A DNA stretch of 64,000 bases from Pedobacter helvus. GTDB lineage: Bacteria; Bacteroidota; Bacteroidia; Sphingobacteriales; Sphingobacteriaceae. Made by a program: the position numbers and the translations under genes. Below, in pieces: positions 7,224 through 58,249 of this stretch. The stretch spans positions 1,059,591 through 1,123,590 of the forward strand of contig NZ_SRMP01000001.1 in assembly GCF_005925325.1 (NCBI RefSeq). Reading direction: 5' to 3'. How positions within the stretch are numbered: position 1 is the first letter of the stretch; every line of letters starts with the position of its first letter. The notes under the pieces were generated by a model. That model worked only from the letters and a program-made list of their open reading frames with translations. It was not told the origin of the DNA and made no database searches.

Positions 7224-7292
7224 CGAATAATAAACCTGAATTAGCAAATAATAAGAGCCAATCTGTAATCAAATAGAAAACCTATAGTTTAG
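7224..7292 (+). promoter_or_regulatory. CGAAT tandem-site promoter, copy a
   Basis: CGAAT at 7224-7228 and CAAAT at 7245-7249 are 21 bp apart, each followed by AATAA. TAGTTTAG (7285-7292) lies 40 bp after the start of the second half-site. The eight other copies in the window have the same layout with 39 bp. The lipoprotein gene starts at 7314, giving a leader of about 15 nt. Confidence 0.6.
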
Positions 7293-7313
7293 CTTCAGAA
7301 AATTAATTAATGC

Positions 7314-8207
7314 ATGAAAAATAGCTATTCAACCCTGATACTTTCTCTAATCATATTAATCTTATCATCTTGCGGACCTACCATTTCTGGTAAGGATGAG
7401 CAATCTTTTAAAACTTCGAGAGCAAAAATGGAAGAGAAATTAAACAAAGCAGAAAAAGTAAATCTAGAAAAAGCACTGAGAGTTATTGCGTTGAAGGCGA
7501 TGAAAGAGAAATGGAATTTTCCTGAGAAATACGAAAGCAAATCATTTGATGAGATTTCGATGGAAATGATTGACGGCAAGAGCTACAGCGCAATCATCAG
7601 CTATGCTGAAGACTTTTTAACAACAGATAAAAAAGAGAAAATAGCTCAAAAAACCACAGAAATTGACAGCTTAGAAAAAAGCAAAGCCGATGTTGCCAAC
7701 ATAATTAAACAACTGGATGCATTTAAATTGACTAAAATTTCGATTAGCGAAGATGAAGGTTTCGATGAGACGCAGCCTTACCTAGACTTAGTTTTCACCA
7801 ATAAATCTGGGGAAGACCTGATTGGAGATTACATGTTTCACATTGAAATTTTTTCAAAAAAAACAGGTGAAAAAATAGCAGCGCAAGGGCAAGGTGGAGC
7901 TTTTAGCGATGATTACGCTATTAAACCAAATGAAACTTACGAACATCACCAACCTTTACTATCAGAAGCTAGAGCGCATTCTAACTTGTGGCAAACAGCG
8001 AAATATCCCATCACAGATTTTTCTCCATACGATTTAGTGATCAAAGCCTATGCAACCAAAATCACTACTAAAAAAGGGGGAACAATTGAAAGACCAAAGA
8101 CTGACATTGCTTATTTTGACAACAAGATTAAAACCTTAAAAAATGAAATTAAGGAACTTGAGAAGAGCAAAGGAACATTAGACGAATTGGAATTGACTGA
8201 TAAATAA
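7314..8207 (+). CDS. Lipoprotein resembling DUF6694 family
   Basis: Function unknown. Lipobox LSSC places the acylated Cys at about residue 20. The following segment (SGKDEQSFKTSRAKMEEKL ... EKALRVIALKAM) has the helical pattern of the DUF6694 lipoproteins as I remember them. The middle has a beta-rich section (ISEDEGFDETQPYLDLVFTN). The C-terminus is a Lys/Glu-rich coiled coil (NKIKTLKNEIKELEKSKG), and an earlier coiled coil lies around residues 105-130. It is preceded by a CGAAT tandem-site promoter and followed after 1 bp by the next lipoprotein gene, so the two are cotranscribed. Confidence 0.8.
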   Translation: MKNSYSTLILSLIILILSSCGPTISGKDEQSFKTSRAKMEEKLNKAEKVNLEKALRVIALKAMKEKWNFPEKYESKSFDEISMEMIDGKSYSAIISYAEDFLTTDKKEKIAQKTTEIDSLEKSKADVANIIKQLDAFKLTKISISEDEGFDETQPYLDLVFTNKSGEDLIGDYMFHIEIFSKKTGEKIAAQGQGGAFSDDYAIKPNETYEHHQPLLSEARAHSNLWQTAKYPITDFSPYDLVIKAYATKITTKKGGTIERPKTDIAYFDNKIKTLKNEIKELEKSKGTLDELELTDK

Positions 8208-8208
8208 C

Positions 8209-9030
8209 ATGCAAAAATTCGGGCGCCTTACATTCTCTATACTAGCTGCTTGCCTCTTGCTTTCATTGCAATCGTGCATCTCTCGGTTGAGAAGACCAGA
8301 GATATCGGGAGTTATTGTAGATTACGATAAAAACCCAATTGCTAACTGCAAAGTTGGCGAGGCCTTGACAGATCAAAACGGGAAGTTCACTTTACCAGAA
8401 ATGCGTTACAACGCCTTTTTGCCAACAGAGATTTTCGCCATGGAGGCACCACCTTTAATGGTCTTGGAGCCAATAGAAAAAGAAGGTTACGAAAAAGATG
8501 AAATTTCTATATTCCATAGTCGCGGGGGCGGGCAACCAAAAGGTGCAAAAAGCGTGATGGATACAATCTTCTTAAGAAAAATCAATCAGCAATTTGATAT
8601 ACCAGCTTTGCTAAAGAACAGTGAGTGGCAACTAGGCTACACCAAAAATGCGGATACGCTTTTGTTGGTTAAAAACGGCTTTAAAGAATGGTGCAAGACA
8701 GACAGATGCAATCCATTTTATAGTGAATACCAGGGATTAACCGATAATTACTATACAGGTGCAAAAAATCTTCCAGAAGGAATGATTAGGAGATTGATAG
8801 ATCTAAAATTCGGCAACGAAAAATCTGAAGTAAAAGTAAATAGGATCTGTCAATATACTAGCACGTTTGAAGGCCCAAATAAAGAACCTGATACTTTAAT
8901 AACCAAAGGAACTTGGCAAGCAACTAACCAAACCATACAATTGAACATCGCCAAAATCACTGAAATTTCCGGCAATTTTAAAATATCAGATGTGGATCTG
9001 TACCAAATGAAACTCACTAGACTGAAATAA
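8209..9030 (+). CDS. Lipoprotein with N-terminal carboxypeptidase-regulatory-like fold
   Basis: Probable lipoprotein (lipobox LQSC, Cys at about 23) of 273 residues. Residues about 34-70 (ISGVIVDYDKNPIANCKVG, then TDQNGKFTLPEM) have the pattern of a carboxypeptidase-regulatory-like beta sandwich, in which a short G(x)V.D..g.P loop precedes a T-D-x-x-G-x-F turn. The rest is unassigned and has several Cys residues (WCKTDRCNPF). It starts 1 bp after the previous stop codon. Its partner or ligand is unknown. Confidence 0.78.
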   Translation: MQKFGRLTFSILAACLLLSLQSCISRLRRPEISGVIVDYDKNPIANCKVGEALTDQNGKFTLPEMRYNAFLPTEIFAMEAPPLMVLEPIEKEGYEKDEISIFHSRGGGQPKGAKSVMDTIFLRKINQQFDIPALLKNSEWQLGYTKNADTLLLVKNGFKEWCKTDRCNPFYSEYQGLTDNYYTGAKNLPEGMIRRLIDLKFGNEKSEVKVNRICQYTSTFEGPNKEPDTLITKGTWQATNQTIQLNIAKITEISGNFKISDVDLYQMKLTRLK

Positions 9031-9047
9031 AAAAGCGAGATTGAAGA

Positions 9048-9653: not shown

Positions 9654-11063
9654 ATGAACAACCTCACCAAGCAAACAAAAATCATTGTTTATAACTATGT
9701 GCTCTGTGTTTTCCTTTCTATCGCTTTAATCGTAACATTAAATCATTATGGTTTAAAGGCCATAGATGGCATTAGAGCATTTACCTCTGGAGAATCTCTT
9801 TTTATGAAGGCTCAACAAGAAGCCTCAAGAAGCCTTACCAATTATGTTTTTACCGCTAAACCGCAGCACTACCAAAATTTCTTAAAGCAATTACAAGTTC
9901 CCATTAATGATAGCTTAGCTAGAAATTCGTTAAATAGAAATGCTAGCAACGAAGTGGTAAGAAAGCAATTGGCACTAGGCAGGAATGTACCTGAAGATTT
10001 GGACAACATCATTTGGGTTTACAAGAACTTTAAATCTTTAAGTCAGTTTAAAGATGCGATTAAAATATGGAAATCGGCAGATCTATTAGTTATGGATCTA
10101 GAGCAGCAGGGCATATACATACATCGAAGAATAACCAATCGTCAGTACCTATCCCCTACCGAAAAAGAAATGCTAGCCGATAAAATTGATCAAACTTGCA
10201 GGCTTATCACAATAAAAGGAGACGAATTTGACCAAGCTTTAACCAAAAGTAGCAAACTTGTAAATACAACGGTAATCACTATCAATACCGTAATTGCATT
10301 GATAATTTTTTCGTGTATTATTATCATTTCATTCAAATACATCAAGCGTTTATCTACACTACAGAAAAATACCTTGGCGCAAAATGAGGCGCTATTGAAA
10401 ATTAATGAAGAGCTAGACCTATTTACCCACAGTGTGTCTCATGATTTAAGAAGTCCTATCACCTCTTTAAAAGGCATTATCAGTTTGGCCGAAGATGAAA
10501 CCTCTGCAAATGAGCGCAAACAGTATTTTGGTTTAATGACGCAGATCTTATCTAGACAAGATGATTTCATTTTGAAAATTATTCAACTTTCAAAAAATAA
10601 GCGGATTGATATTCAAATGCAGGAAATCTACCTTCCTACATTTTTTGAAACCATTGCTCAAGATCTAAAATACGGGCTAGATATAAATGTCGAAATTAGA
10701 TATGATGTACAACCTATTACCATAAAAATAGATGCATTTAGATTGGATATCATCTCTCGAAACTTAATTTCCAATGCGTTGAAATATGCTGACCAAAGTA
10801 AACCTTCGCAATTTATTCAAATTTCTGCTTATCTGATTAGTGGATTTCTGCAACTCAACTTTGAAGATAACGGCCTAGGCATAGCCGAAGAACATGTAAA
10901 TAAGGTATTTGATATGTTTTATGTAACCGCACACCAAAATAAAGGGAGTGGTATAGGTTTATATTTGGTAAAAGAAATGGTCAACAAAATGGATGGACAA
11001 ATTAACGTAACATCTAGTGTGGGCAAAGGAAGTATTTTTGCAATAAAATTACCTATCGTGTAG
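9654..11063 (+). CDS. Membrane sensor histidine kinase
   Basis: Sensor kinase of 469 residues. Membrane helices lie at about 10-29 and 205-227 and enclose a helical extracytoplasmic sensor domain of about 175 residues. The catalytic part has the H-box HSVSHDLRSPIT (phospho-acceptor His263), N-box NLISNALKYAD (Asn374), G1 box FEDNGLGI (403-410), F-box VFDMFYVT and G2 box GSGIGLYLV (431-439). All key residues are present, so it should be active. No response regulator lies next to it, so it is an orphan in this window. It might feed the unknown activator of the CGAAT sites, but nothing in the sequence links them. Confidence 0.93.
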   Translation: MNNLTKQTKIIVYNYVLCVFLSIALIVTLNHYGLKAIDGIRAFTSGESLFMKAQQEASRSLTNYVFTAKPQHYQNFLKQLQVPINDSLARNSLNRNASNEVVRKQLALGRNVPEDLDNIIWVYKNFKSLSQFKDAIKIWKSADLLVMDLEQQGIYIHRRITNRQYLSPTEKEMLADKIDQTCRLITIKGDEFDQALTKSSKLVNTTVITINTVIALIIFSCIIIISFKYIKRLSTLQKNTLAQNEALLKINEELDLFTHSVSHDLRSPITSLKGIISLAEDETSANERKQYFGLMTQILSRQDDFILKIIQLSKNKRIDIQMQEIYLPTFFETIAQDLKYGLDINVEIRYDVQPITIKIDAFRLDIISRNLISNALKYADQSKPSQFIQISAYLISGFLQLNFEDNGLGIAEEHVNKVFDMFYVTAHQNKGSGIGLYLVKEMVNKMDGQINVTSSVGKGSIFAIKLPIV

Positions 11064-12755: not shown

Positions 12756-12823
12756 CGGATTTAGAGTGGTAGCAAACGAATAATAAATCGGCCTAAAGCA
12801 CCACATCAAACTACTTATCTTTA
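12756..12823 (+). promoter_or_regulatory. CGAAT tandem-site promoter, copy b
   Basis: CGGAT (12756-12760) and CGAATAATAA (from 12777) are 21 bp apart. TATCTTTA (12816-12823) starts exactly 39 bp after the second half-site. There is no TTTG at the -33 position. The zinc-ribbon gene starts at 12841, so the leader would be about 12 nt. Confidence 0.65.
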
Positions 12824-12840: not shown

Positions 12841-13182
12841 ATGATCATTTTCGGCACTCGTTCAAAAGTTTTAAGTGGCAGTACTGCTACCGCAGATTGC
12901 GACTATTGTTCATCTAAACAAACAGTTAGGTTAAGTTTTGCGTTACGCTATTTTCACATCTTCTGGATCCCCATGTTTCCGCTCAGCAAAACGGGTGTAA
13001 GCCAATGTAGCCATTGCAAACAAACGCTTTACGCCAACCAAATGCCAAATGCGTTAAAAATGGTTTACGAAGAAGAGAAGAAAAAAGTTAAAACTCCTTG
13101 GGGATATCGTTTTGGCCTTATTTTAATTGGATTGTTTTTCGCTTTCGTAATTGCCTCTATCGTGTTTGGTGGGGGTGAATAA
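12841..13182 (+). CDS. Zinc-ribbon domain membrane protein
   Basis: A 113-residue protein with two CxxC knuckles (CDYC at about 20-23 and CSHC at about 57-60) forming a likely Zn-ribbon, separated by an aromatic segment (FALRYFHIFWIPMFPLSKTG). A C-terminal membrane helix follows (FGLILIGLFFAFVIASIVFG). This matches the common zinc-ribbon domain-containing proteins whose FHIFWIP-like motif precedes a membrane anchor. The function is unknown. It heads a tight gene run (gaps of 10-25 bp) reaching to 16.5 kb and is driven by a CGAAT tandem-site promoter. Confidence 0.85.
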   Translation: MIIFGTRSKVLSGSTATADCDYCSSKQTVRLSFALRYFHIFWIPMFPLSKTGVSQCSHCKQTLYANQMPNALKMVYEEEKKKVKTPWGYRFGLILIGLFFAFVIASIVFGGGE

Positions 13183-21102: not shown

Positions 21103-21170
21103 CGAATTGCAGTTTATCCTTAGCGAATTTTAAATTAAGTGTTGTATTAGAAAGGGTATTTATATTTTAG
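21103..21170 (+). promoter_or_regulatory. CGAAT tandem-site promoter, copy c
   Basis: CGAAT at 21103-21107 and 21124-21128 are exactly 21 bp apart. TATTTTAG (21163-21170) starts 39 bp after the second half-site. The first half-site follows directly after the stop codon of the preceding gene. Predicted leader about 25 nt to the ATG at 21203. Confidence 0.68.
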
Positions 21171-26625: not shown

Positions 26626-26714
26626 CGAATAATAGCCTCTTGTAATCGAATAATTTTTGAAACGTGGCGAATAACAAAACGTAAATTTCATCTGTAATTT
26701 AAACGCTAACTTAA
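26626..26714 (+). promoter_or_regulatory. CGAAT triple-site promoter, copy d
   Basis: Three CGAATAA units start at 26626, 26647 and 26668, each exactly 21 bp apart. TAACTTAA (26707-26714) lies 39 bp after the start of the third unit. The gene start follows at 26722, so the transcript would be nearly leaderless. This is the only copy in the window with three half-sites. Confidence 0.65.
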
Positions 26715-31543: not shown

Positions 31544-31993
31544 ATGGAAAACAAATTTTACAAACAACAAGGCGATGAGTATATCGCAAAGAAAGACCGT
31601 TTAGTTCCAATAATTGGATTGCTAATTTTCGTGGGCATTGCTGTCTATTTCTTTATCGATGGCGCCAAGCACGATGGTGTTCCTTATTGGGTATTTCCAC
31701 TCTTTCCAATTGCATTGGTCCTGTATCAAATCGGGCTATCGGCGAAGCTAAATCTTTCTACTAAAATGGCTACAGAAAGTTGGTTCGGCATTAAGCTTAA
31801 AGAATATCATTTTAACTCCGTTTCAAGGTTTATCGTGGTTAAAAAAACAGTAAACCTAATTAGTGCAGGCTATGGTGCATCAATCGCTTTCAAAACTGCA
31901 GGCAAAGAGGAAAAGGAAATTGCTTTTGCCCACTTTAAGAAGAAAGAAATTGCCGAAGAATTTTTAGCAGAGACACAACGGTTAATGAAATAG
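31544..31993 (+). CDS. Two-helix membrane protein
   Basis: 149 residues. Two membrane helices (VPIIGLLIFVGIAVYFFIDG and YWVFPLFPIALVLYQIGL) are followed by a small cytoplasmic beta-helix domain (FGIKLKEYHFNSVSRFIVVKK, FAHFKKKEIAEEFLAETQRL). The order of strands and the last helix resembles a short PH-like domain; this is a guess. It has its own CGAAT promoter. The promoter and first codons have a decayed duplicate at 38355-38460, where the gene body is missing. Confidence 0.78.
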   Translation: MENKFYKQQGDEYIAKKDRLVPIIGLLIFVGIAVYFFIDGAKHDGVPYWVFPLFPIALVLYQIGLSAKLNLSTKMATESWFGIKLKEYHFNSVSRFIVVKKTVNLISAGYGASIAFKTAGKEEKEIAFAHFKKKEIAEEFLAETQRLMK

Positions 31994-32047
31994 AAATATT
32001 TGAAGTGAGGAAATGATGAGGAAAACTTTGTCAGTGTTTTTTGGCAA

Positions 32048-32285
32048 TTGTAGCCCCGCTTTTTGTTACCCCCGATAAAAATCGGGATCCACGTCAATCG
32101 GGTTTAGCACACCAAGCCAGTAGTGCTTTTGAGGGGTTTGCTTTGCACCGCCTTAAGTTCTATAGCCCCGATTGAAGCGGAAATCGCTTTACCAAGTCCC
32201 CGCCGTGGCGGGGATTTAGGGTAAAGGGATAAGAGCGGAAAGCGGGACGAACATTAAAAAGGGAAACAGCAACTGCGCTTCAAAT
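32048..32285 (+). repeat. Large interspersed structured element, copy 1
   Basis: About 238 bp. Blocks shared with 38496-38749 are TTGTAGCCCCGCTTTTTGTTA, CACCAAGCC.GTAG, TTGAGGGGTTT, GCACCGCCTTAAGTT, TATAGCCCCGATTGAAGCGG, GAGCGGAAAGCGGGACGAAC and GCGCTTCAAAT. Two places vary and hold hairpin tips: CCCGAT-aaaa-ATCGGG near 32071-32086 and TCCCCGCCGTGGCGGGGA near 32197-32214. The element fills the 374-bp gap between the genes at 31544 and 32368; no gene is seen there. Confidence 0.75.
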
Positions 32286-32367
32286 CATAGATGTAATAAA
32301 CTTCCACACTACAAAGCGATTAATGCCTCGGAAAGGGCAATCATTATACAAAAAAATCAGCATAGAT

Positions 32368-33000
32368 ATGACAACCAAGACATTCAAAGAAGATTTTCGA
32401 AAGAGAACAAAGGGTATCGACAACATAATGATTGAAGCAATGTTCAGTGACTATGTTTTGTATAAAAATGGGAAGCGAATTGGTGTACTTTTCGATAACA
32501 AACTGCTGTTGATTTCTACCGAAAACCTGAAAAAATTATTGCCCGATGCACCTGAAGAAACTTCTTTTGATTGGGGTTACTACAAATTAACCCACATCGA
32601 AGATTTGGAAAATGTAGCGCTTTTGGAACAGACCATAAACACCACTTACAATGATTTGTATTTTGAGCAAGAGTTAGTGGCAGACCTATCTGCTATGATG
32701 GAAAGCTACGCCAGTTATCCCGATATTACAGCAAAAATATACAACCATCATATTACCTTTCTGCGATTTTGCTACGAAAAGAAATTGCTTAAAAAACAGC
32801 CAATCGATCAGCTGGGGCGCATCGTCCGGATGCATTATACCAACAGTGATTTAACTGAAGACGGAATAAAAACATTTGAACAATTGTATGAAAAATGGCT
32901 TAATTATAACGATAAAAATGATGATAAAACAGATACAAGGGCGGTAGATACAAAAACGCTGGAAAAGTATTACACCAAAATTCTTGCAGAGCAAGCATAG
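32368..33000 (+). CDS. Protein with N-terminal TfoX-like domain
   Basis: 210 residues from the ATG at 32368. Residues about 5-85 follow the TfoX N-terminal pattern: MFSDYVLYKNGKRIGVLFDNKLLLI, then SFDWGYYKL, then a helix with LENVALLEQTI. The C-terminal half is helical (DLSAMMESYASYPDITAKIYN, LRFCYEKKLLKKQPIDQL) and unassigned. No signal peptide, probably cytoplasmic. TfoX-N domains also occur outside competence. Here the neighbours are immunity-type genes (Imm17 directly downstream), so a role in that setting is more likely than competence; this is inference. Confidence 0.7.
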   Translation: MTTKTFKEDFRKRTKGIDNIMIEAMFSDYVLYKNGKRIGVLFDNKLLLISTENLKKLLPDAPEETSFDWGYYKLTHIEDLENVALLEQTINTTYNDLYFEQELVADLSAMMESYASYPDITAKIYNHHITFLRFCYEKKLLKKQPIDQLGRIVRMHYTNSDLTEDGIKTFEQLYEKWLNYNDKNDDKTDTRAVDTKTLEKYYTKILAEQA

Positions 33001-33007
33001 CATAGCG

Positions 33008-33259
33008 ATGGATTATTTAGAACAGGCACAACAGTACATCTCTGATCAAAAGCACGGTTTCGAATATTTTGCACTGGTGTTGGGAATTTTCTTTGCTTGG
33101 TCGGCAATTGGTAACTGGAACTGGTTTTACGACCCGCCCTATAACTCGGTAAAAAATCCTATCGGTTATTGGTTAGGGCGCAAAGCATTTAGGGTAACCA
33201 TTTTTATTTTCGGCATTTTTTTAATAGCCGGTGCGGTTTGGCTTTTAATGGGTGAGTAA
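33008..33259 (+). CDS. Immunity protein 17 family membrane protein
   Basis: 83 residues from the ATG at 33008. Two membrane helices (FEYFALVLGIFFAWSAIGNW and VTIFIFGIFLIAGAVWLLMG) flank a short loop, WNWFYDPPYNSVKNPIGYWLGRKAFR. A helix start, a W-x-W...DPP loop, a LGRKxxR segment and a second helix match Imm17 as I recall it. Imm17 proteins are predicted immunity proteins for toxins delivered between bacteria. It starts 7 bp after the TfoX-like gene. No toxin gene follows; instead there is a 475-bp stretch of gene remnants. Confidence 0.78.
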   Translation: MDYLEQAQQYISDQKHGFEYFALVLGIFFAWSAIGNWNWFYDPPYNSVKNPIGYWLGRKAFRVTIFIFGIFLIAGAVWLLMGE

Positions 33260-33291
33260 ATAATAGGGATAAATAAGAGCTCACGAAATGA

Positions 33292-33453
33292 CATATCAAA
33301 AGAAAATTATACGGGCTTGGCGAGAAGAAAACTACGGCTTTTCTGAACTATGTCTACAAAGGTAGTACGCCAATTGACTTTTCTACACCTAATTGGCAAT
33401 ACGATGCGGAGCAAGTAAGTGAATTTATAAAGAAGAACAGAAACAGAAAATAA
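33292..33453 (+). pseudogene. Gene remnant (C-terminal fragment)
   Basis: A 53-codon open frame without a start codon follows a TGA and reads, in part, KKTTAFLNYVYKGSTPIDF and QYDAEQVSEFIKKNRN before a TAA. Its composition is clearly protein-like, but no family could be named. It is read as the surviving 3' end of a lost gene. Confidence 0.45.
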
Positions 33454-33522
33454 GACTACCGCCTGCCAAAGTTTGCCTTGCGAAGCTCCGAGACGTAATA
33501 TATTAACAAAACGCCCATCAAA

Positions 33523-33627
33523 ATGAATAAAGAAGAATTAAAGAAACAATTTCTGCTAAAAAGGTTGGAAGACCCCAATGTAGAAGAGTGGAAAAAAAAG
33601 GACATCAGAGGATTGCAAAATATTTGA
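33523..33627 (+). pseudogene. Short ORF, probable truncated gene start
   Basis: 34 codons from an ATG (MNKEELKKQFLLKRLEDPNV ... ) to TGA. The charged helical sequence looks like the N-terminus of a larger protein cut short. Directly downstream, at 33651-33689, lies a 39-bp copy (two mismatches) of the promoter-proximal and start region of the SUKH gene (34420-34458), which runs into a stop after eleven codons (MTDKNLQKLIP). Confidence 0.4.
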
Positions 33628-33650
33628 ATTTTGATTGACCGTTTTTTTTA

Positions 33651-33689
33651 ACAAAACGCTTATGACAGACAAGAACTTACAAAAATTAA
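33651..33689 (+). repeat. Duplicate of the 5' end of the SUKH gene
   Basis: ACAAAACGCTTATGACAGAC and the following AAGAACTTACAAAAATTAA match 34420-34458 with two mismatches. That region includes the start codon and first nine codons of the SUKH protein gene. After this point the sequences diverge. It marks a past partial duplication or recombination between related immunity genes. Confidence 0.8.
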
Positions 33690-33743
33690 TACCCTAATCA
33701 ATCAAAATCCAGAATTCATAAATCTATCAGAATATTGACCGTT

Positions 33744-34202
33744 ATGACAGAACTCACTAGCGATATTGAGCAAGAATTATTGAAAGCTATGGACGATTAC
33801 AAAGCCATTGCTCAATTACTTATTGATAAGCTGATTACAGAAACAGACCAACCGGAAAAAGCAGAAATTCAGGCAGGACGTTATTTTGAAATTCAGAATG
33901 CAGATCTGTTAAATGGACAAGAAAATCTTTCAGACAATTGGTGGTTTGATGTTCACGGCGAACATTGTCTGTTTAGAAATTTGATAACAGGACAAACTCT
34001 TGAGGTTTCACTTGGAAATAAAGAAAGTATAGCCAATCTCGATCCTTATTTCTTCTATAATTTTTTGGAAACAACGGAAAACTTCAGACATCTGACAAAA
34101 TATTTCAAAAATCCATTTAACGACACTTTGAACTTGTTTAAGAAATTGGAAAAGAAACAAAAAATGGTAAATATTTATGGTGTGAATTTTAGAAAACTAT
34201 AG
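33744..34202 (+). CDS. DUF6896-like protein, possible immunity protein
   Basis: 152 residues from the ATG at 33744. No signal peptide. After an N-terminal helix (DIEQELLKAMDDYKAIAQLL), the core WWFDVHGEHCLFRNLITGQT ... LDPYFFYNFLETTENF follows the pattern I associate with DUF6896 (an HG-x-x-C-x-F stretch, a T-G-Q, then L-D-P-x-F-F...F-x-x-T-T). DUF6896 proteins often sit in polyimmunity loci. The assignment is moderate. It lies between two partial copies of the SUKH gene start. Confidence 0.7.
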   Translation: MTELTSDIEQELLKAMDDYKAIAQLLIDKLITETDQPEKAEIQAGRYFEIQNADLLNGQENLSDNWWFDVHGEHCLFRNLITGQTLEVSLGNKESIANLDPYFFYNFLETTENFRHLTKYFKNPFNDTLNLFKKLEKKQKMVNIYGVNFRKL

Positions 34203-34430
34203 AGAATAGCTAAGCTCCGAGATGCTGGCGCAATGCTTTTCCCAAAACAACAACACTAAAAATTTAGAACTGATACCTGAAATGCGGAAAAACGTAGAAG
34301 GAATTGCAAAATGGCGAATGAGTATTTTAGACCTGTGCGCCAGATAAAACCGAATGCCTAACAAATTTTTACGTAAGGTTGGCCAACGTGCAAAATTTGA
34401 ATACCCATTTTTTAATTGAACAAAATGTTT

Positions 34431-35474
34431 ATGACAGACAAGAACTTACAAAAATTAAGACAGCAAATAGTTGACGAAACCGATGGGCTTAAATTTTCCA
34501 AACTGATAGAGAAGCTATTGAAGAAATATGCATCAACTGACAGAGAATATGTTTTGGAAATCCTGACAGATTATGCCAGGAATGGACAAATTTTGCATTG
34601 GCGAAATTTTCTGCTGAATGATATTATAGAACTTGTAAACGAAGGAGAAGCTAACTACGTTGAATTTTTCGAGTGGTGCGTCACGCAACCTGAATTAACC
34701 TATTGGGGAATTGATGGGCTATTAAAAACCAACGGAAGAAAATCATTTTCGGCACTCATTGAAATTCTAAAAAACGAAAGTCTTAAAACTTCAATCCGTG
34801 CAAAAGCAATCAAAAGTATTTCGGTATTTAGCAAACAGCCGTTTGACCGGGAATTACCTAAAGACCCGGGACATTGGAAAGTAGAAGATTTAAGAATAGA
34901 GGAAATAGAAACCTGGCAGAAAAATGGTTTTCAAGATGGTGAAGGTTATACCCAACCGAAAACTCATATTTCGTTAGAAAATCCAAAAACAGAACTGGAA
35001 AAAATTGCTTCAAAACTTAATAAAAAACTCGAAGCACAAAGAACTAAAAATCAAGATTTATCAAACCCGGCCAACTGGTTGACTATTGCAGACGAAACCG
35101 ACATTTTGAACATAGAGAAAAGATGGAAATTGCCGGAGAATTATTTAACGTTTCTGAAAAACTACTCGCCTTTGAAAGTATTTATTAACAGCAGAAAATA
35201 TTTTCAGGGTTTGCATTTATATGGCGCTTCTGACTTGATAAAGAGACAGGAAGGATATTCATTTAATCCGGTAACTAACAAAACGATTGACGAATGGCCA
35301 GAGAATTTTGTTGTCATTGCTGATGCAGGAGCTGACCCATATTGCATAGACATCAGTCAAATAAAAGATAAAGATGCACCCATTTATACAAGCACCCACG
35401 GAAATGGCGAATGGAAATTTGAGTTATATGCAGACAGCTTTTTAACTTTTTTAAAGGAAATTGCTCGAAGATAA
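34431..35474 (+). CDS. SMI1/KNR4 (SUKH) domain protein with long helical N-terminus
   Basis: 347 residues from the ATG at 34431; an ATG at 34425 is also possible. Residues 1-205 are helical and HEAT-like in spacing (YVLEILTDYARNGQILHWRN, FSALIEILKNESLKTSIRAK). Residues 221-343 are a typical SUKH domain: DILNIEKRWKLPENYLTFLKNY, LHLYGASDLI, WPENFVVIADAGADPYCIDI, then THGNGEWKFELYADSFLTFL. SUKH proteins are broad immunity proteins of bacterial toxin systems. It is probably cytoplasmic. A fragment of its 5' end is duplicated at 33651-33689. The fusion with a long helical domain is longer than a usual stand-alone SUKH protein. Confidence 0.9.
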   Translation: MTDKNLQKLRQQIVDETDGLKFSKLIEKLLKKYASTDREYVLEILTDYARNGQILHWRNFLLNDIIELVNEGEANYVEFFEWCVTQPELTYWGIDGLLKTNGRKSFSALIEILKNESLKTSIRAKAIKSISVFSKQPFDRELPKDPGHWKVEDLRIEEIETWQKNGFQDGEGYTQPKTHISLENPKTELEKIASKLNKKLEAQRTKNQDLSNPANWLTIADETDILNIEKRWKLPENYLTFLKNYSPLKVFINSRKYFQGLHLYGASDLIKRQEGYSFNPVTNKTIDEWPENFVVIADAGADPYCIDISQIKDKDAPIYTSTHGNGEWKFELYADSFLTFLKEIARR

Positions 35475-35850
35475 TAAGTGATTTGAACAAATGGTTTTAC
35501 GATTTTGACGTGAATTAGGCGGACGAATTTAGAAATTACTAAAAAAGAATAGTTCTTAAGAGCAGTTCAAATGCAAAATTGAAAGATTGATTTTTTCCTT
35601 AATTTTCTTTATAAAAACTGCCATCAGTAATTGGTAACCGATACCTCTTTCTATCAAAAAAAAATCGGCAAAATAAAGCGAATAATAAATAAGCACCTGC
35701 GAATTGTGAATGAAAGCTTTTTATGCTCCGCTTATTTGTATTTTAGATTGGAGAGATTAAAAAACACACAAATAACCTAACAAATTTTGCGCTAAAACCA
35801 TCTACCTATGGCAAGGTTCGAAACTTTGGTGGTAATTATAACACAACATT
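35475..35850. other. 376-bp intergenic region holding a CGAAT promoter
   Basis: Apart from the tandem-site promoter at 35679-35746, I see no gene. A 34-codon ATG frame at 35807 overlaps the start of the next gene and has a composition (MARFETLVVIITQHYGH) that gives no support for translation. The leader from the promoter to the ATG at 35851 would be about 95 nt, longer than at the other copies. Confidence 0.5.
35679..35746 (+). promoter_or_regulatory. CGAAT tandem-site promoter, copy f
   Basis: CGAATAATAA at 35679 and CGAATTGTGA at 35700 are 21 bp apart. TATTTTAG (35739-35746) starts 39 bp after the second half-site, with the same box sequence as copy c. It precedes the BON-Imm1 gene at 35851, which places an immunity-type gene under the shared control. 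Confidence 0.7.
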
Positions 35851-36501
35851 ATGGACACAACAAAATTCGATCATTTACCCGCCGAGCTGAAAGAGAAGAT
35901 TATCCAATCTAGGCGAGCTTTTTTAAAAGCACAAGAAATTAGCGACAAGATTTCGGACGCCTTTAATATTTGTAACCTAAGCGTTTCTGCAACTGCCGAA
36001 AGTATCATTTCAATAAGTGGAATTGTTGACGACAAAAACGAAAAAGATGCTATCCACAATTTTGCACTACAACTGGAAAACGTTTCAAGTGTTAGCAATG
36101 GCATTGATGTATTGGCTAATTCTACCCTATTGACTTTAACTGCCAACGGGGATGAATTTTCCGTTACTACGCTGGCCGAATTGCAAATTGTACTAGCCCA
36201 TTACCAAGAAAAATCATTTGTAGATTATAGTTTTAGCGGACACGGTGAAACCACAGTTTTATTATTAAGAAATTCAACACATTCATTCGCAATCTATCTC
36301 AAATATGAAGGCGATGCAGGTTTTACTACGTACAACGCTAAAGGTACGAGTACGGAAATAGAAAATTTTATGTTGACAAATGGTCAAAAAGATGAATATC
36401 CTACCTCACTCTTGGTTGACAATAAAGATGGTTTAGAAATCCTGAAGTTTTACTTATTAACAGGAGAAATGTATCCAGGTATTGAATGGCGAGAAGAATA
36501 A
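35851..36501 (+). CDS. BON domain - Imm1 fusion protein
   Basis: 216 residues, no signal peptide. Residues about 31-87 (ISDKISDAFNI, SVSATAESIISISGIVDDKN, FALQLENVSSVSNGIDVL) follow the alpha-beta-beta-alpha-beta layout of a BON domain. Residues about 105-215 match Imm1-type immunity proteins: TLAELQIVLAHYQE, then HSFAIYLKYEGDAGFTTY, then the C-terminal signature LEILKFYLLTGEMYPGIEW. BON domains usually bind phospholipid or other envelope surfaces, so the fusion may bring an Imm1 antidote to a membrane. The BON call is weaker than the Imm1 call. It has its own CGAAT promoter. Confidence 0.75.
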   Translation: MDTTKFDHLPAELKEKIIQSRRAFLKAQEISDKISDAFNICNLSVSATAESIISISGIVDDKNEKDAIHNFALQLENVSSVSNGIDVLANSTLLTLTANGDEFSVTTLAELQIVLAHYQEKSFVDYSFSGHGETTVLLLRNSTHSFAIYLKYEGDAGFTTYNAKGTSTEIENFMLTNGQKDEYPTSLLVDNKDGLEILKFYLLTGEMYPGIEWREE

Positions 36502-36602
36502 CTATCGCTAACAAGGTTAGCTAAGCTGATTGCGATATTCTTTTTACAGAATAAGTCTCTCACAGCTCACCAAACCGTCACTCTACAAATGAAAAACAAA
36601 GA

Positions 36603-37199
36603 ATGAAAACATTAACTGAAATTATAGCAAATTATAGAGATACTCAGGATGAAAACTTATTAGAAGGCTTTAAGTTTAAACATAATGGGGAAACGGAATA
36701 TGGCAAAATCTTCGACCTTAATTATTGGCACAGAAAAGATTTGGTTTTTACGCTGTACGAAAATTATTCGCTGGCAGATAAACCTTTAATCAAATGGCTT
36801 TTAAACGAAGAGTTTAAAGGCTATGATGCAGAGGCAGATTTGCCAGTTTACCTAACCGATCTTTGTGCTTTTATGCTGTACAAGCTAATGGAAATGGAAG
36901 ACGTTTATGATTTATTTAGAGTAAAGTTTGGCGCAGGCACAGATAATCAATTTTTTGTGGATATAGAATTGGTATTGGGAATTGACAGTGAACAAACTAA
37001 ACAATTTCTATTAAACAATCCTAAAAACAAGCGACTAAACAAACAGATTATAAAGACCATAAATTGGTACGAAAGCCAACCAGAACATAAACTAAAGGAC
37101 AGAGAAACATATATAAATCATTTTGAGAGTAAAAAAATCAGATGGATAAAAAATGATATGGAAGATACAGAGAGCTATAGTAGAAACCAATTGATGTAA
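36603..37199 (+). CDS. Hypothetical protein in immunity-gene cluster
   Basis: 198 residues, no signal peptide, acidic N-terminal half and basic C-terminal half. Aromatic- and Leu-rich helices dominate (LYENYSLADKPLIKWLLNEE, CAFMLYKLMEMEDVYDLF). The end (DRETYINHFESKKIRWIKND) is strongly basic. No family is recognised; size and setting resemble other immunity proteins, which is inference only. It starts 101 bp after the BON-Imm1 gene. Confidence 0.72.
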   Translation: MKTLTEIIANYRDTQDENLLEGFKFKHNGETEYGKIFDLNYWHRKDLVFTLYENYSLADKPLIKWLLNEEFKGYDAEADLPVYLTDLCAFMLYKLMEMEDVYDLFRVKFGAGTDNQFFVDIELVLGIDSEQTKQFLLNNPKNKRLNKQIIKTINWYESQPEHKLKDRETYINHFESKKIRWIKNDMEDTESYSRNQLM

Positions 37200-37300
37200 A
37201 GCTATACACACCGAAGGTCCTCAGCTTTTGAAAGTGCCAGTTACAAATTATAAAATTTCCATCGCTGTACCGATCTTCCATCATCTAAACCTAAAGAGAA

Positions 37301-37756
37301 ATGAAAACATTTAAAATTACCTTTTACATTCTCCTATGCTTACTGTCGGTAAATTCATCTTTTGGGCAAACATTAGAATTAGCCGACTTAAGAAAAGCGT
37401 ACAATGCTCAAAAACCAACTGAGCATAAACAGCTAATATCAAAGGGTTTTAAACTACTAAGTGATACGATTTCAACAAACCAAAAGAAATTTAAATACCA
37501 ATCAGCTAAAAAAGAAATCATTGAATTGGTATTCACAGAAGATGGAGAAGGTAGTGAATATCTAAGTATAACTTATTATTTACCATCAGAACTGGCGTAT
37601 AAGAAATTTCTCTCCACGCTAACAGGGTATAAATTCAAGTATAGCAAACGAAATCAACGTTATCAACTACCAATAAGCTCCTATTCTGGCGAAAATGTTT
37701 ACCCCAAAGGGTTAACGCTGTATAACGGAATGAAATATTATGCTTTAGAATGTTAG
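37301..37756 (+). CDS. Small secreted protein
   Basis: 151 residues with a signal peptide (cleavage near SFGQT). The mature domain has a helix (ELADLRKAYNAQ), then beta strands with many Lys/Tyr (KKFKYQSAKKEIIELVFTED, YLSITYYLPSELAYKKFLS, YKFKYSKRNQRYQLP). The function is unknown. A coding relic in another frame begins at its 3' end. Confidence 0.74.
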   Translation: MKTFKITFYILLCLLSVNSSFGQTLELADLRKAYNAQKPTEHKQLISKGFKLLSDTISTNQKKFKYQSAKKEIIELVFTEDGEGSEYLSITYYLPSELAYKKFLSTLTGYKFKYSKRNQRYQLPISSYSGENVYPKGLTLYNGMKYYALEC

Positions 37757-38328: not shown

Positions 38329-38362
38329 AACTACAAAAAACTGGCAGATCTCTACGAATAAT
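38329..38362 (+). pseudogene. Remnant of a GIDE-protein gene 3' end
   Basis: CTACAAAAAACTGGCAGATC and the bases that follow match the end of the gene at 30475-31467 with about 31 of 34 positions identical. They encode INYKKLADLYE followed by a stop, against INYKKLADLNE in the intact gene. Upstream similarity stops at once. It continues directly into promoter copy g, just as the intact gene end runs into promoter copy e. Confidence 0.65.
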
Positions 38363-38422
38363 AAAGTATATCCAGCGAATTTTAATCACAACATATACGG
38401 CTAAAATTTAGATGTAAATTTA
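38355..38422 (+). promoter_or_regulatory. CGAAT tandem-site promoter, copy g (orphan)
   Basis: CGAATAATAA at 38355 and CGAATTTTAA at 38376 are 21 bp apart. TAAATTTA (38415-38422) starts 39 bp after the second. Downstream, ATCTACCTCTGAAAAATAAA aligns with the start region of the gene at 31544 (ATCTATCTATGGAAAACAAA), but the ATG is CTG and the gene body is gone. Transcription would run through the structured element into the WG-repeat lipoprotein gene at 38782. Confidence 0.65.
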
Positions 38423-43167: not shown

Positions 43168-43476
43168 CAAACAAATTTGCCTATCAGCTCACCCTTAAAA
43201 TCACACTAGTTTAACCTGGTCCATTTTGCAATATGTCAACAGAAGACGTCAAAATTGATCGTTGCTGCTTCGCTTTATAGTTAAGTTAAAGCATGTAAAG
43301 TTGGAGCAAAGGAGCGCAGTTACCCCATACATTATAGTCGAAAAACCTTCAAATCCCTACGAATGATAATTTATACCCAGCGAATTATAATTAGCTCAAT
43401 TTTCTATAAATTTTAGAGGTAGATTTAAGTATCAAAAAGGTAACATCTTTTTGCATAGTAAAAATAACGAGGACTA
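43168..43476. other. 309-bp intergenic region holding a CGAAT promoter
   Basis: No gene is seen. The tandem-site promoter occupies 43360-43427. The bases just before it read, in one frame, KPSNPYE followed by a stop. This echoes the NE/YE-stop ends found directly at promoters e and g, and may be another trace of the same module. Confidence 0.5.
43360..43427 (+). promoter_or_regulatory. CGAAT tandem-site promoter, copy h
   Basis: CGAATGATAA at 43360 and CGAATTATAA at 43381 are 21 bp apart. TAGATTTA (43420-43427) starts 39 bp after the second. It precedes the lipoprotein gene at 43477, the head of a long tightly packed run of envelope genes (43477-47694 with gaps of 1-11 bp). Confidence 0.72.
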
Positions 43477-46289: not shown

Positions 46290-46293
46290 TTTA

Positions 46294-47694
46294 ATGATGA
46301 TGAAAAAAATTCTTTCTACCCTTTTTATAATTATCGCACTGGCACCGTCAAAGTCTTGGGCTCAGGAAATTAAGTTTCCAGAAAGTTTCCGTTCAGATCC
46401 TACATTATTTAAAGGAATGAAGCTTGCCGAAATTCCTAAAGACATCCAAACCAAAAATGGTATTAAAAAGAACCCAACTATAATTATTGATGTTGCTAAA
46501 ACTAAAGGTGCATTGATAAGTGGTGGTTTAAAAGGTGTAAAATCTATTTACATGGAAATTTGGGCAAACCCAGCAAATAAAAAACTGAATTATGGTTATG
46601 AAGTGGCAAAATTTGCATCGGTAGTAGATTTAGATCATGTTAAACCTCAATTAAAACCATGGGCTTACGGTGCAATTTTAACCGTTCAAAAGTATCTGAT
46701 TATCGTAAAGTGCGTTGGGTCAGAAAATTCAGATGAATATGTGGATAGGATGGTATCTTATTTCCAGCAAAAACTTGGTGCTAAGCTCATTCAAGATAGA
46801 TTGAAAGAAGCTAAGGTTGCTGTTACAGAGAATTATGTAAGCAACTTGCCAGCGCCACTTCCGCCAGCCCCAAAAGGCACTTCAATTGCTATAGAGCTGA
46901 AGGATTTAGAGCGGAGAATTGCTACTACAAACGGTCTAGCCTACATTCGTAACCAAAAAAGCCAAAAACTCGGACCAGGAAATTATCGGGCTACAAGCAC
47001 CTCTCCAGTATACGAAACTTTGGAGTTCGCTGTTGATCAAGACAGCTTGCTTGATGGAGATTTCCGTTATCATTATGCGGAAGATTACAGCAAATCGCCT
47101 TCTAAAGAAAGTAAATTAACTTATGATCACGGGGTTTTAACCTCAGAGATTATGTATGCCAACGGCCATTTGCTGATTGCTAAAGATTACTCGGTTGACG
47201 TAGTTAAAGAGGGAGAAGACTACTTAATCACTGTGAAAACATCAATAAAAAAAACTGAAAAGGGAGATAAGGAAGTGGTTACTGTTTTTCGAAATCGCAA
47301 ACCAATCTCAAAAATTACGACCAGAGCCGGCGTATCTGTCATTCGAAAAGATTTTGAAAAAGATTATTTAGATGAGTTTAACAGCAAGGGGCAATTGGTA
47401 AGAATAGAGAAGCCTGGTCTTATAGAAAAATACAATAGTGCCGGAGAAGTCATTTATAAAGAAGAATGGTCCGTTGGTAACCATACGGTTTACAAAAACG
47501 GGAAACTCATTAAAAAAGAAATCCGTGTGAAAGATAAAGAGCAATATTTGGTAACCGAATATGATGAGAGTGGAAAAGTAACTAGTGAACGATTGAAGGG
47601 TATTGAAAGTAACCCAGTAATTGCCGATCCTGATGAATACGAAGATGAATTAACCGAAGCACTGTTTAATTATTACAAGAAGAAAGTGAAATAA
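46294..47694 (+). CDS. Secreted protein with weak YwqK-like C-terminal repeats
   Basis: 466 residues; three consecutive ATG codons (46294, 46297, 46300) give equivalent starts. Signal peptide cleavage is near SWAQE. The N-terminal half is an alpha/beta domain (FKGMKLAEIPKDIQTKNG, KGVKSIYMEIWANPANKKL), then a Pro-rich linker (LPAPLPPAPKG). The C-terminal half is strand-rich with MORN-like phrases (DEFNSKGQLVRIEK, EKYNSAGEVIYKEEW, YDESGKVTSERL). Last gene of the compact 43477-47694 run. Confidence 0.78.
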   Translation: MMMKKILSTLFIIIALAPSKSWAQEIKFPESFRSDPTLFKGMKLAEIPKDIQTKNGIKKNPTIIIDVAKTKGALISGGLKGVKSIYMEIWANPANKKLNYGYEVAKFASVVDLDHVKPQLKPWAYGAILTVQKYLIIVKCVGSENSDEYVDRMVSYFQQKLGAKLIQDRLKEAKVAVTENYVSNLPAPLPPAPKGTSIAIELKDLERRIATTNGLAYIRNQKSQKLGPGNYRATSTSPVYETLEFAVDQDSLLDGDFRYHYAEDYSKSPSKESKLTYDHGVLTSEIMYANGHLLIAKDYSVDVVKEGEDYLITVKTSIKKTEKGDKEVVTVFRNRKPISKITTRAGVSVIRKDFEKDYLDEFNSKGQLVRIEKPGLIEKYNSAGEVIYKEEWSVGNHTVYKNGKLIKKEIRVKDKEQYLVTEYDESGKVTSERLKGIESNPVIADPDEYEDELTEALFNYYKKKVK

Positions 47695-47717
47695 ATGCAT
47701 CAATCGTAAAACCTAAA

Positions 47718-47766
47718 CCCGACAGTAGCGAACACGAGTGTAGCGAAGTAAAGAGGATGGCGGGAC
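47718..47766 (+). repeat. Interspersed element CCYGACAG...GGCRGGAC, copy 2
   Basis: A 49-bp unit beginning CCCGACAGTAGCGAACACGA and ending GGCGGGAC, highly similar to 16522-16569. The terminal stem changed from CCTG/CAGG to CCCG/CGGG. It lies in the 120-bp gap between the genes at 46294 and 47815 and is followed by TTTCGGAGCC. Confidence 0.72.
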
Positions 47767-47814
47767 TTTCGGAGCCTAAGAACACCGAAACTTGCTTTTC
47801 AAAAAATTAAAAGG

Positions 47815-48894
47815 ATGAAGAAAATGGTAATTTATATCGCAATAATTTTAATAGCATGTGTTGCATTGCAAACCTGTTCTGTGATTAATTTATCGCCGAG
47901 TTTGTTATTCAATAGCGCCAAGTATAAAAAGTTTCCGGAGTTACAAGAAAGTTTAAAATGGGATAACTTTTTGATGATTAGGGCTACTCAAAATAATAAC
48001 GATGGCATTAGGTACTATCCTGAAAAGAACTTTTTCTTGATAGCTAGCACTCCTATTTTTATCAAAGTAGATAGCGCAGGCAACAAAGCTTTTGAATTGA
48101 AAAACGATAAAGATTTGAAGTTTTTAGATGCCATCAATTGTTATGTAATTACAGCAAATGGCATTTATGATTTATCTGCAGAAAAACCTGTCGAACAACC
48201 TTTTTCGGAGATTATAAATGCAGAAAGTAATCTTTCAAACAAAGCATGGGTAGAAGATTTTTTCGGTAAGTTTTACAACTCAGCCGATGTTGTATTGTTC
48301 AGTTTGTATCCCGGCTTGGTCAATAGAGAAGCAGTGTATTTTCGACAAAATGGTAAGTGGATCAAACTTTATACGCCTAAATCTTCGTCGTTTGTTTATG
48401 CTGATGGCTCAACAATAAAATGCAAAATAAACAGGGAGCAAGTTTTGGCCAAATTGCAAGTTGAGCATTTTTTAAAGGATGTAAAAAATGCAACCTATTC
48501 GAACGAGTTGAGGTTTACTGATGCCTACATTACACCTTATAATTCGGACAATTCATTTTTCCCAGACCAAAAATTGGAATATGTAAGCAAAGCGAAATTA
48601 AAAACATTGGCTTTTACGAAAGAAACCTACACTACCGAAGGTTATTTTAATCCGGGTATTCCCAACCAGTTTTATGGCATGGTCTATTATAATTTAGAGA
48701 TTGATAATACAGTTTTGAATTTTAAAACTGTGGCGAGCAAGGCTTCTTTTGGAGGCCAGATAGAAACATATTTGCATTTATTTGAATTACCAGCTAAATA
48801 TGCTACTAAAAGCAACGTACGCTTTTTAACCTACGATTATAGCACCAATTTCCACGAAAACAAGAAAAAGGGTGTGTACATTATAAAGAATTAA
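47815..48894 (+). CDS. Probable lipoprotein of unknown function
   Basis: 359 residues. The N-terminal hydrophobic segment ends ALQTCSVI, an acceptable lipobox. The body is beta-rich with repeated short strand pairs (NFFLIASTPIFIKVDSAGNK, DAINCYVITANGIYDLS, NREAVYFRQNGKWIKLYTPK), reminiscent of WG- or propeller-type repeats but without clear motifs. It starts a second compact run (47815-51595). Confidence 0.76.
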   Translation: MKKMVIYIAIILIACVALQTCSVINLSPSLLFNSAKYKKFPELQESLKWDNFLMIRATQNNNDGIRYYPEKNFFLIASTPIFIKVDSAGNKAFELKNDKDLKFLDAINCYVITANGIYDLSAEKPVEQPFSEIINAESNLSNKAWVEDFFGKFYNSADVVLFSLYPGLVNREAVYFRQNGKWIKLYTPKSSSFVYADGSTIKCKINREQVLAKLQVEHFLKDVKNATYSNELRFTDAYITPYNSDNSFFPDQKLEYVSKAKLKTLAFTKETYTTEGYFNPGIPNQFYGMVYYNLEIDNTVLNFKTVASKASFGGQIETYLHLFELPAKYATKSNVRFLTYDYSTNFHENKKKGVYIIKN

Positions 48895-56668: not shown

Positions 56669-56707
56669 AACAAACTAATTACTCAGGCTGTCACGCTAAA
56701 GATAAAT

Positions 56708-57367
56708 ATGAAAAGGTTAAAGAAGTTCATAATAACAACAATCATTTTAGGTTTAATAACGATGGCTATTATTTGGGTGACCAACAGCAACGTTACAGCT
56801 AAAACAGAAAAAGTAATTTTTACAGCACTTAAAGATGTACCGAAAACTAAAGTTGCGATAATTTTTGGAGCAGGTATCAACGGCGATCAACCCAGTAGGT
56901 ATTTAAGAGATAGATTAGATGCCGGAATTTCGTTGTACAAAAACAACAAAGTGGATAAAATATTGCTATCTGGCGATAATGGCAGAGACGAACACGACGA
57001 ACTTACCGTGATGAAGTTATACTGCCAGAAAAAAGGTGTAGATACCACCAAAATCTACATCGATTATGCTGGATTTGATAGTTACTCGACCATGTATCGT
57101 GCAAAACATATCTTTAAAGTTGATACGGCAATTTTGGTTACGCAGAAATATCACCTCAACAGATGCGTTTACCTAGGCGATAAACTGGGTGTTAAATCGT
57201 TCGGTTATAGTGCAAACAAAGGCGTTTATCCAGGCTATAAATACTATGCATCTAGAGAAAAACTATCGGTTACCAAAGCCGTTTTAGATATAATCAGAAA
57301 TAGAAAACCGAAGTATCTAGGAGAAACGGTTGATATCAATGGACAATCCAATTATACTAAAGAATAA
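56708..57367 (+). CDS. SanA/YdcF family (DUF218) protein
   Basis: 219 residues: an N-terminal membrane anchor (FIITTIILGLITMAIIWVT) and a DUF218 domain (about 48-190). Family signatures are VAIIFGAGI, RYLRDRLDAGISLY, KILLSGDNGRDEHDELTVMK, DYAGFDSYSTMYRAK, and VTQKYHLNRCVYLGDKLG. The closest known relative by pattern is SanA, an envelope protein of enterobacteria that affects vancomycin exclusion. It is a single-pass membrane protein acting in the periplasm, probably in cell-envelope maintenance. The next gene starts 3 bp downstream. Confidence 0.9.
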   Translation: MKRLKKFIITTIILGLITMAIIWVTNSNVTAKTEKVIFTALKDVPKTKVAIIFGAGINGDQPSRYLRDRLDAGISLYKNNKVDKILLSGDNGRDEHDELTVMKLYCQKKGVDTTKIYIDYAGFDSYSTMYRAKHIFKVDTAILVTQKYHLNRCVYLGDKLGVKSFGYSANKGVYPGYKYYASREKLSVTKAVLDIIRNRKPKYLGETVDINGQSNYTKE

Positions 57368-57370
57368 ATT

Positions 57371-58165
57371 ATGAGATATCTATTTTTATTTGCTTTGCTA
57401 GTGGTTTTAGGTTGTAATCCTATTCCTAAAAAAGACAAACACCCAGATGTAGCACAACTAACCGATTTGCTAAAAGACGAAAGCAAGTTCAGAAAAGTTA
57501 CCGATATGGAGGGATTAAGTAGTCTTGTTTTTTTAAATGACAATAGCATACTTTTAAAGCCCGATAACAGCAACTCGCCCGTAAAGATTATTGACGTAGA
57601 TAAGAATATTTTGTTTGAGAATGTGTATGACTGGAAACAGCCATTTTATATCGATAAACAAGGAAATCTATACTTAAACGGAAAAAAATTTTTCTACCCC
57701 GAATATAAAAAACAAGAAGTTTTTAAAGCTTTGGTTGTTGCAGATAGCTTGAGCAAAAAGTCGGAAGAATTTAAAGATATGAGTGATAGTTTGGCACTTA
57801 AAGAACTCAAAAATTACGAAACTACCCTATTAAAACCTTATGGATTAAAGCCTTGCGCTCAAACCATTGTTAATACACAAAATTGCAATGTTTTTAAAGT
57901 GATCAACCAAACTTTGGTAGTGAGACAGACTGAGCTTTTCAAAAGCGAACTCGACGTACCAAAAACCGAAATCCCCAAATTTGATGACGATGTATTGATC
58001 GGTTGGCGCAACGGACGTTTGCCTAGTCCAGATTATTTGGCCTACTACGAACTCAAAAATCTACGCTTTAAATGCGATGACTTGGTCAATCCATCAACAG
58101 TAACCTTAAAAGGCAAACCCTACTTATTTGCACCAGGCTTAGGTTTGTATCAAGTTTTATTTTAA
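57371..58165 (+). CDS. Lipoprotein of unknown function
   Basis: 264-residue lipoprotein (lipobox VLGC, Cys at about 15) followed by KKDKHPDV, a weaker version of the DKYPxxP motif in the genes at 43477 and 50602. Beta-rich with repeated Asp/Asn turns (FLNDNSILLKPDNSNSPVKI, YIDKQGNLYLNGKKFFYPEY) and a Cys pair (KPCAQTIVNTQNCNVF). The function is unknown. Last intact gene of the long array. Confidence 0.77.
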   Translation: MRYLFLFALLVVLGCNPIPKKDKHPDVAQLTDLLKDESKFRKVTDMEGLSSLVFLNDNSILLKPDNSNSPVKIIDVDKNILFENVYDWKQPFYIDKQGNLYLNGKKFFYPEYKKQEVFKALVVADSLSKKSEEFKDMSDSLALKELKNYETTLLKPYGLKPCAQTIVNTQNCNVFKVINQTLVVRQTELFKSELDVPKTEIPKFDDDVLIGWRNGRLPSPDYLAYYELKNLRFKCDDLVNPSTVTLKGKPYLFAPGLGLYQVLF

Positions 58166-58181
58166 TACAGTCGATGAAAAT

Positions 58182-58249
58182 CGAATAATAACCAGATGGT
58201 ATCGAATTTACATTGAAAATGCACACTCGTTAATTCTCTTATAAATGAT
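58182..58249 (+). promoter_or_regulatory. CGAAT tandem-site promoter, copy i
   Basis: CGAATAATAA at 58182 and CGAATTTACA at 58203 are 21 bp apart. TAAATGAT (58242-58249) starts 39 bp after the second; its 3' half departs from TTTA, so this is a weaker copy. The next gene starts at 58317. Confidence 0.55.

Follow-up and report, generated by a model that had tools for sequence, protein, structure and literature searches.

In PMC11347149 and PMC6193735, regulators of the LytTR family are described as reading 9-bp repeats with 10-13 bp between them, just upstream of promoters; operators with three repeats exist as well (RcoM1, CoxC), and in Bacteroides thetaiotaomicron LytTR repeats of 11 bp lie 11 bp apart, ahead of a -7 box (PMC6193735). 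A 64,000-nucleotide stretch of the Pedobacter helvus genome (contig NZ_SRMP01000001.1, positions 1,059,591 to 1,123,590), here called the window, carries tandem CGAAT words 21 bp apart upstream of nine transcription units. The window is G000:C1:1059591-1123590, G000 being the source genome, and positions without a contig prefix are window positions. On sequence comparison, the nine sites quite probably act as the operator-promoters of a single regulon whose reader is a LytTR-family regulator, most likely the product of G000:C1:148404-149162. Like the LytTR-family operators described there, they are direct repeats in tandem, spaced by roughly two helix turns and placed immediately before a predicted promoter, but they differ in their half-site (CGAATnnTAA), in a -7 box without a recognisable -33 element, and in being present in several copies within one island. 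The LRS-like LytTR operons of B. thetaiotaomicron and B. ovatus (PMC6193735) also belong to Bacteroidota and have direct repeats 11 bp upstream of a pair of elements ending TATCTTTG; their repeat word is a different one, however, and their regulator partners a membrane protein instead of a histidine kinase. No paper naming LytTR and Pedobacter together was found in the literature search, and the one paper naming both LytTR and Sphingobacterium mentions LytTR once.

Phased CGAAT repeats in the window

The nine tandem sites listed in the original prediction are real. The exact pattern CGAAT-N16-CGAAT occurs nine times in the window, always on the + strand, versus 0.13 expected and a maximum of one among 100 shuffles. 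These nine matches comprise seven of the listed places, an overlapping extra match at 26647, which makes the promoter at 26626 a run of three half-sites with a 21-bp period, and an intragenic match at 40068. The remaining two listed places deviate by one letter each (7224, second half CAAAT; 12756, first half CGGAT), and all nine lie on the + strand ahead of transcription units. The 21-bp phase of the half-sites was confirmed: on the + strand there are 10 C[GA]AAT pairs at N16, while no other gap from 10 to 26 has more than 2; on the - strand N16 has 2 pairs and no other gap exceeds that number. Read as CGAATnnTA with a period of 21 (9 bp + 12), the repeats have the dimensions of a LytTR operator, i.e. 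direct repeats of about 9 bp with 10-13 bp between, and the longer word C[AG][AG]ATnnTAA fits 12 of the 19 window half-sites. The intragenic match (40068-40093, +) lies within the WG-repeat gene and is possibly due to chance.

The operator-promoters and their first genes are given below; ranks are positions among 127,926 in the window, scored with a first matrix made from 19 half-sites found behind the gene of the partner kinase in nine loci of other genomes.

7224..7292 (+): operator-promoter 1, CGAAT-N16-CAAAT; imperfect box TAGTTTAG at 7285-7292; rank 2
7314-8207 (+): first gene of promoter 1, 297-aa lipoprotein-like protein, DUF6694
12756..12823 (+): operator-promoter 2, CGGAT-N16-CGAAT; box TATCTTTA at 12816-12823; rank 12
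12841-13182 (+): first gene of promoter 2, zinc-ribbon-like, under the Pfam cut-off
21103..21170 (+): operator-promoter 3, CGAAT-N16-CGAAT; box TATTTTAG at 21163-21170; first gene 21203-22003; rank 9
26626..26714 (+): operator-promoter 4, half-sites at 26626, 26647 and 26668; box TAACTTAA at 26707-26714; ranks 10 and 7
26722-28356 (+): first gene of promoter 4, 544 aa
31461..31528 (+): operator-promoter 5, CGAAT-N16-CGAAT; box TAAATTTA at 31521-31528; first gene 31544-31993; rank 3
35679..35746 (+): operator-promoter 6, CGAAT-N16-CGAAT; box TATTTTAG at 35739-35746; first gene 35851-36501; rank 4
38355..38422 (+): operator-promoter 7, CGAAT-N16-CGAAT; box TAAATTTA at 38415-38422; rank 5
38782-40749 (+): first gene of promoter 7, WG-repeat lipoprotein, with a long leader containing a Flavo-1 RNA match
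43360..43427 (+): operator-promoter 8, CGAAT-N16-CGAAT; box TAGATTTA at 43420-43427; first gene 43477-44355; rank 1
58182..58207 (+): operator 9, CGAAT-N16-CGAAT; TATAAATG at 58240; rank 11 in the first matrix
58317-58520 (+): first gene of operator 9, 67-aa membrane protein

The -7 boxes, which are predicted from sequence, begin at +39, counted from the first base of the last half-site, in seven of the nine promoters, four of them (12756, 31461, 38355 and 43360) with a full TAnnTTT[AG] match. The promoter at 7224 has an imperfect box at +40, and 58182, with just TATAAATG at +37 (4 of 6 letters), has no clear -7 box; the earlier count of eight boxes at 39 bp and one at 40 bp was thus overstated. 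At 7224 and 35679 the box nearest +39 was taken, over a later box favoured by the tie-break of the script. A TTG stands 17-23 bp ahead of the box in one promoter of nine (21103, 18 bp) and at 19-20 bp in none, as had been claimed, but since about 0.14 per site is expected by chance, this absence of a -33 element is no different from that in random sequence. Direct activation is likely, since no -33 element is recognisable and the last half-site starts at a distance of 39 bp from the predicted -7 box.

Repeats beside kinase genes and target genes across genomes

The G000 genome contains 17 LytTR matches, and a profile built from the nine promoters also matched C1:151127, directly behind the genes of a LytTR regulator and its kinase. 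The regulator (G000:C1:148404-149162) has a receiver and a LytTR domain (PF00072 and PF04397, above cut-off) and the kinase (G000:C1:149162-151114) is of LytS type (PF06580 and PF02518, above cut-off), the combination of Response_reg, LytTR and LytS-type kinase that makes up a LytTR two-component system. The kinase has an N-terminal lipobox, a long part and then a membrane helix; the long part is TPR-like in the G014 orthologue (TPR_12 above cut-off), and the G000 kinase has no TPR match. The orthologous pair of G014 has a CGAAT word ahead of the regulator gene and two behind the kinase gene at 20-bp spacing. Further sites lie outside the window at G000:C1:151131, 154553, 157814 (-), 232252 and 526150 (-), and the regulon probably extends beyond the nine units. 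In one such region (L035, G000:C1:518000-536500), sites at 8151 and 8172 (-) head a series of genes for lipoprotein-like and ankyrin-repeat proteins; in G021 (L062), too, sites are followed by a first gene that by eye resembles the one here.

The suggestion that the reader belongs to the LytTR class has gained support, as phased repeats were found 3' of the LytTR kinase gene in many species and also at the promoter of a related LytTR kinase gene. Orthologues of the kinase (E <= 6.7e-125; next match 2.7e-59) are present in 20 of 119 Pedobacter genomes. Pairs of C[GA][GA]AT at 21 or 42 bp, no more than 260 bp past the kinase stop, were found at 11 of these 20 loci and at 2 of 10 paralogue loci (p 0.07); 10 orthologue loci have exactly 21 bp, the next commonest spacings being 42 bp (5 loci) and 24 bp (4 loci). 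In a wider set, the best 80 of 92 loci from named Bacteroidota genomes, C[GA][GA]AT-N16-C[GA][GA]AT occurs from -30 to +300 of the kinase stop at 32 loci, as against 3 of the 80 when a control stretch is searched (Fisher p 8e-9, loci treated as independent), and each other gap at no more than 8 of 80; the 32 are divided among Pedobacter (11 of 21), Sphingobacterium (2 of 28) and others (19 of 31).

Half-sites from other species also recover those of the window. With the first matrix the listed sites take ranks 1-5, 7 and 9-12; five scores at spacing 21 are at least 24.6, and the best at other spacings from 15 to 27 reaches 16.7 (24 bp), so that the five lower sites are not separable from background by this matrix alone. 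A second matrix, made from 24 chosen sites of other genomes, places eight of the nine listed promoters and an overlapping neighbour (43339) above the cut-off, with 58182 under it and no match in ten random windows. The full promoter pattern has 42 matches in the 119 genomes versus 17 for its reversed control, and at least two full promoters occur in 8 of 119 genomes, all 8 with a kinase orthologue (p 1.6e-7, kinship ignored); excluding G000 and G078, 6 of 6 are kinase-positive (p 6e-6, kinship again ignored). These 8 site-rich genomes form two distant kinase groups, with 60-100% and 40-42% identity to the query. A cross-genome profile of 33 hand-picked sites from other genomes (E<=0.01) gave 53 matches, of which up to 32 are training sites, in 11 of the 20 kinase-positive genomes and 2 matches in 2 of 20 author-chosen kinase-negative genomes.

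That the window genes share an operator is also indicated by the same 21-bp phased repeats upstream of their orthologues in other species, the orthologues having been located irrespective of sites. Orthologues of the zinc-ribbon-like gene in five other genomes (56-81% identity) are preceded by phased repeats in four (L120 at 42 bp; L121, L122 and L124 at 21 bp), one of which, G005, has no kinase orthologue, and by two CGAAT words at a different spacing in the fifth (L123); none of 22 more distant zinc-ribbon loci scores for phased repeats (L144 was not aligned). Among 12 loci with the 544-aa protein, three in-phase repeats are found in the window's genome and in L148, L149 and L150, and repeats are present at L158, a short fragment match. 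There are none directly upstream of the gene in L151 and L152 (G041 and G089), the G089 gene probably lying inside a site-led run, and none upstream in L153-L157. The 544-aa target gene is present in 7 of 20 kinase-positive versus 3 of 99 kinase-negative genomes.

Two further sites were noted in genomes without a close orthologue of the kinase: a strong one at L067 9929 (G007:C1), before a relative of 44361-44963, and three phased CGAAT words at L069 5786-5807 (G005:C34). The latter lie upstream of a gene cluster that we take to be peptide-modifying, with a C39-type transporter.

The probable reader of the operators

In the proposed mechanism, an envelope signal would cause the kinase (149162-151114) to phosphorylate the LytTR regulator. 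The phosphorylated regulator would then occupy two or three half-sites (CGAATnnTAA) that, at a spacing of 21 bp, share one helix face. Bound just upstream of a -7 box that lacks a recognisable -33 element, it would recruit RNA polymerase. As the target operons code mainly for proteins predicted to be exported or in the membrane, together with some from toxin-immunity families, the output would probably be an inducible programme of envelope defence or immunity.

Several points weigh against assigning the nine sites to this system. The regulator gene is about 0.9 Mb from the window, neither in it nor near it; direct activation is an assumption drawn from geometry; and 58182 is a weak member of the regulon. 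A protein similar to the 67-aa product behind 58182 also follows a site in L061, L104, L105 and L113. The bare pattern is not enriched genome-wide (22 exact matches versus 24 for the reversed control), but it is clustered, with 9 of the 22 in the window, which makes up 1.4% of the genome. In the first matrix, the lower-ranked window sites have scores of 8-15 bits, a range that is also reached at other spacings. The contrast between orthologue and paralogue loci is weak by itself, and most of the 20 Pedobacter loci recur among the wider 80; by the criteria used, 9 of 20 Pedobacter loci and 48 of 80 wider loci (26 of 28 in Sphingobacterium) are without repeats. Fewer than two full promoters are found in twelve of the 20 kinase-positive genomes, and the full-promoter counts for G000 and G078 each include the promoter of the related system. 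Finally, G005 has sites and target genes yet no close kinase orthologue, its cluster lying beside the related LytTR system.

That related system (regulator G000:C1:737774-738538, kinase 738531-740453) could itself be the main reader of the window operators, or both systems could read them with overlapping specificity, which we consider unlikely. Its kinase promoter, CGAAT-N16-CGAAT-N34/35-TATATTTA just before the kinase gene, has essentially the window geometry. Among six genomes chosen because sites or a cluster lay nearby, the full pattern is found at this gene in G000, G078, G117 and G121, and repeats at 42 and 21 bp in G005 and G020, respectively. Over 251 residues the two regulators share 34% identity, the G005 island adjoins the related system, and a weaker kinase match of the related kind is present in all 8 site-rich genomes. 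However, C[AG][AG]ATnnTAA fits 12 of 19 window half-sites but none of the 8 related-system half-sites (G000, G078, G117 and G121; by eye), and each of the 50 genomes whose kinase matches are all of the weaker kind (E<=1e-40) has at most one full promoter. A core word shared by two LytTR clades thus supports the regulator class, yet leaves some doubt as to which system runs the island.

Direct repeats are also used by other regulator families, and the link with LytTR, an association of sequences, might be one of neighbourhood alone. A reader of another class is nevertheless quite improbable, as the repeats accompany two LytTR clades at two positions (3' of the kinase gene in one, 5' of it in the other) in several Bacteroidota genera. 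It is scarcely credible that the likeness of the sites reflects descent, by duplication of promoters within the island, with no common regulator: the promoters at 31461, 38355 and 43360 do share about 100 bp (76% and 63% identity to 31461), but the remaining copies share little beyond half-sites and phase, the site precedes dissimilar first genes, and half-sites and phase are kept in other species.

The island and its genes

The island, of about 55 genes nearly all on the + strand, occupies roughly 7 to 59 kb of the window, with rpsL/rpsG/fusA on one side and a PagL-like gene on the other. A Pfam scan of 60 proteins, from which a few small open reading frames (ORFs; 50602, 51600, 52247 and 58317) were left out, gave matches above cut-off for DUF6694 (7314), HisKA kinase (9654), Imm26 (14633), TonB_C (16611), DKNYY (29237), GIDE (30433), DUF6896 (33735), SUKH (34416), WG repeat (38782), YARHG (52970) and DUF218 (56708). 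The DKNYY assignment of the original prediction was thereby upheld, but its zinc ribbon (score 27.2, cut-off 28.9) and BON-Imm1 protein (BON 26.4, cut-off 27; Imm1 18.0, cut-off 22.4) fall below the cut-offs. The HisKA-type histidine kinase gene (9654-11063, +) has no recognised response regulator adjoining it.

A hydrophobic or lipoprotein N-terminus was assigned, with a crude rule, to 41 of 54 ORFs in the island and to 21 of 63 from other parts of the genome. Imm26 and SUKH, which are not adjacent, are the only immunity families above cut-off in the window, most genes having no family match; the site-led run of L059 includes a SUKH gene, along with a sub-threshold LRR match, and the L035 run contains ankyrin repeats. 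Immunity-type families and predicted export together suggest that the products may defend the envelope against competitors, which is the weakest step of the reading; VipB/TssC was not found in 40 genomes. Heterogeneous polyimmunity loci (PMC3482391) likewise string together dissimilar immunity genes in tandem in Bacteroidetes, and the regulon here includes SUKH, Imm26 and ankyrin families; unlike those loci, the island has mostly genes without an immunity family among those scanned, many predicted exported products and several promoters.

The same-genus genome G078 has the island at the same place, with gene order largely kept. One segment is set apart from the rest:

31544..37756 (+): eight-ORF segment (with SUKH, DUF6896, weak BON/Imm1 and other proteins) between the near-duplicate promoters 5 and 7

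The fetched stretches of G078 and seven further genomes contain no homologue of any of these eight ORFs; also missing in G078 are, among others, 14633, 23237, 29237, 40793, 43477 and 44965-48894. The flanks 31431-31532 and 38325-38426 are 76% identical over 102 bp. Flavo-1 RNA matches (RF01705; 32160-32253 and 38650-38717, +; 46.4 and 45.1 bits) sit some distance behind promoters 31461 and 38355, the second within the 38355 leader, and the blocks around both are duplicated. This single case suggests that the segment may be a cassette gained between duplicated promoters. A 51-base repeat (33642-33692 and 34411-34461, 88% identical), upstream of and at the start of the SUKH gene, is perhaps the remnant of a gene copy.

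As a tentative and rather doubtful extension, a widespread LytTR system of Bacteroidota may have become, in some Pedobacter, the master switch of a growing mosaic island of envelope defence, in which copies of the operator-promoter would act as docking points and cassettes inserted between duplicated promoters would be born into the regulon; the SUKH segment, without a homologue in the matching island of P. xixiisoli, would be a recent gain. For about 55 mostly unannotated genes the main reading offers a predictive operator and a candidate regulator, which makes the island a testable regulon, and it also supplies an operator word for a LytTR clade of Pedobacter, Flavobacterium, Chitinophaga, Parapedobacter and others.

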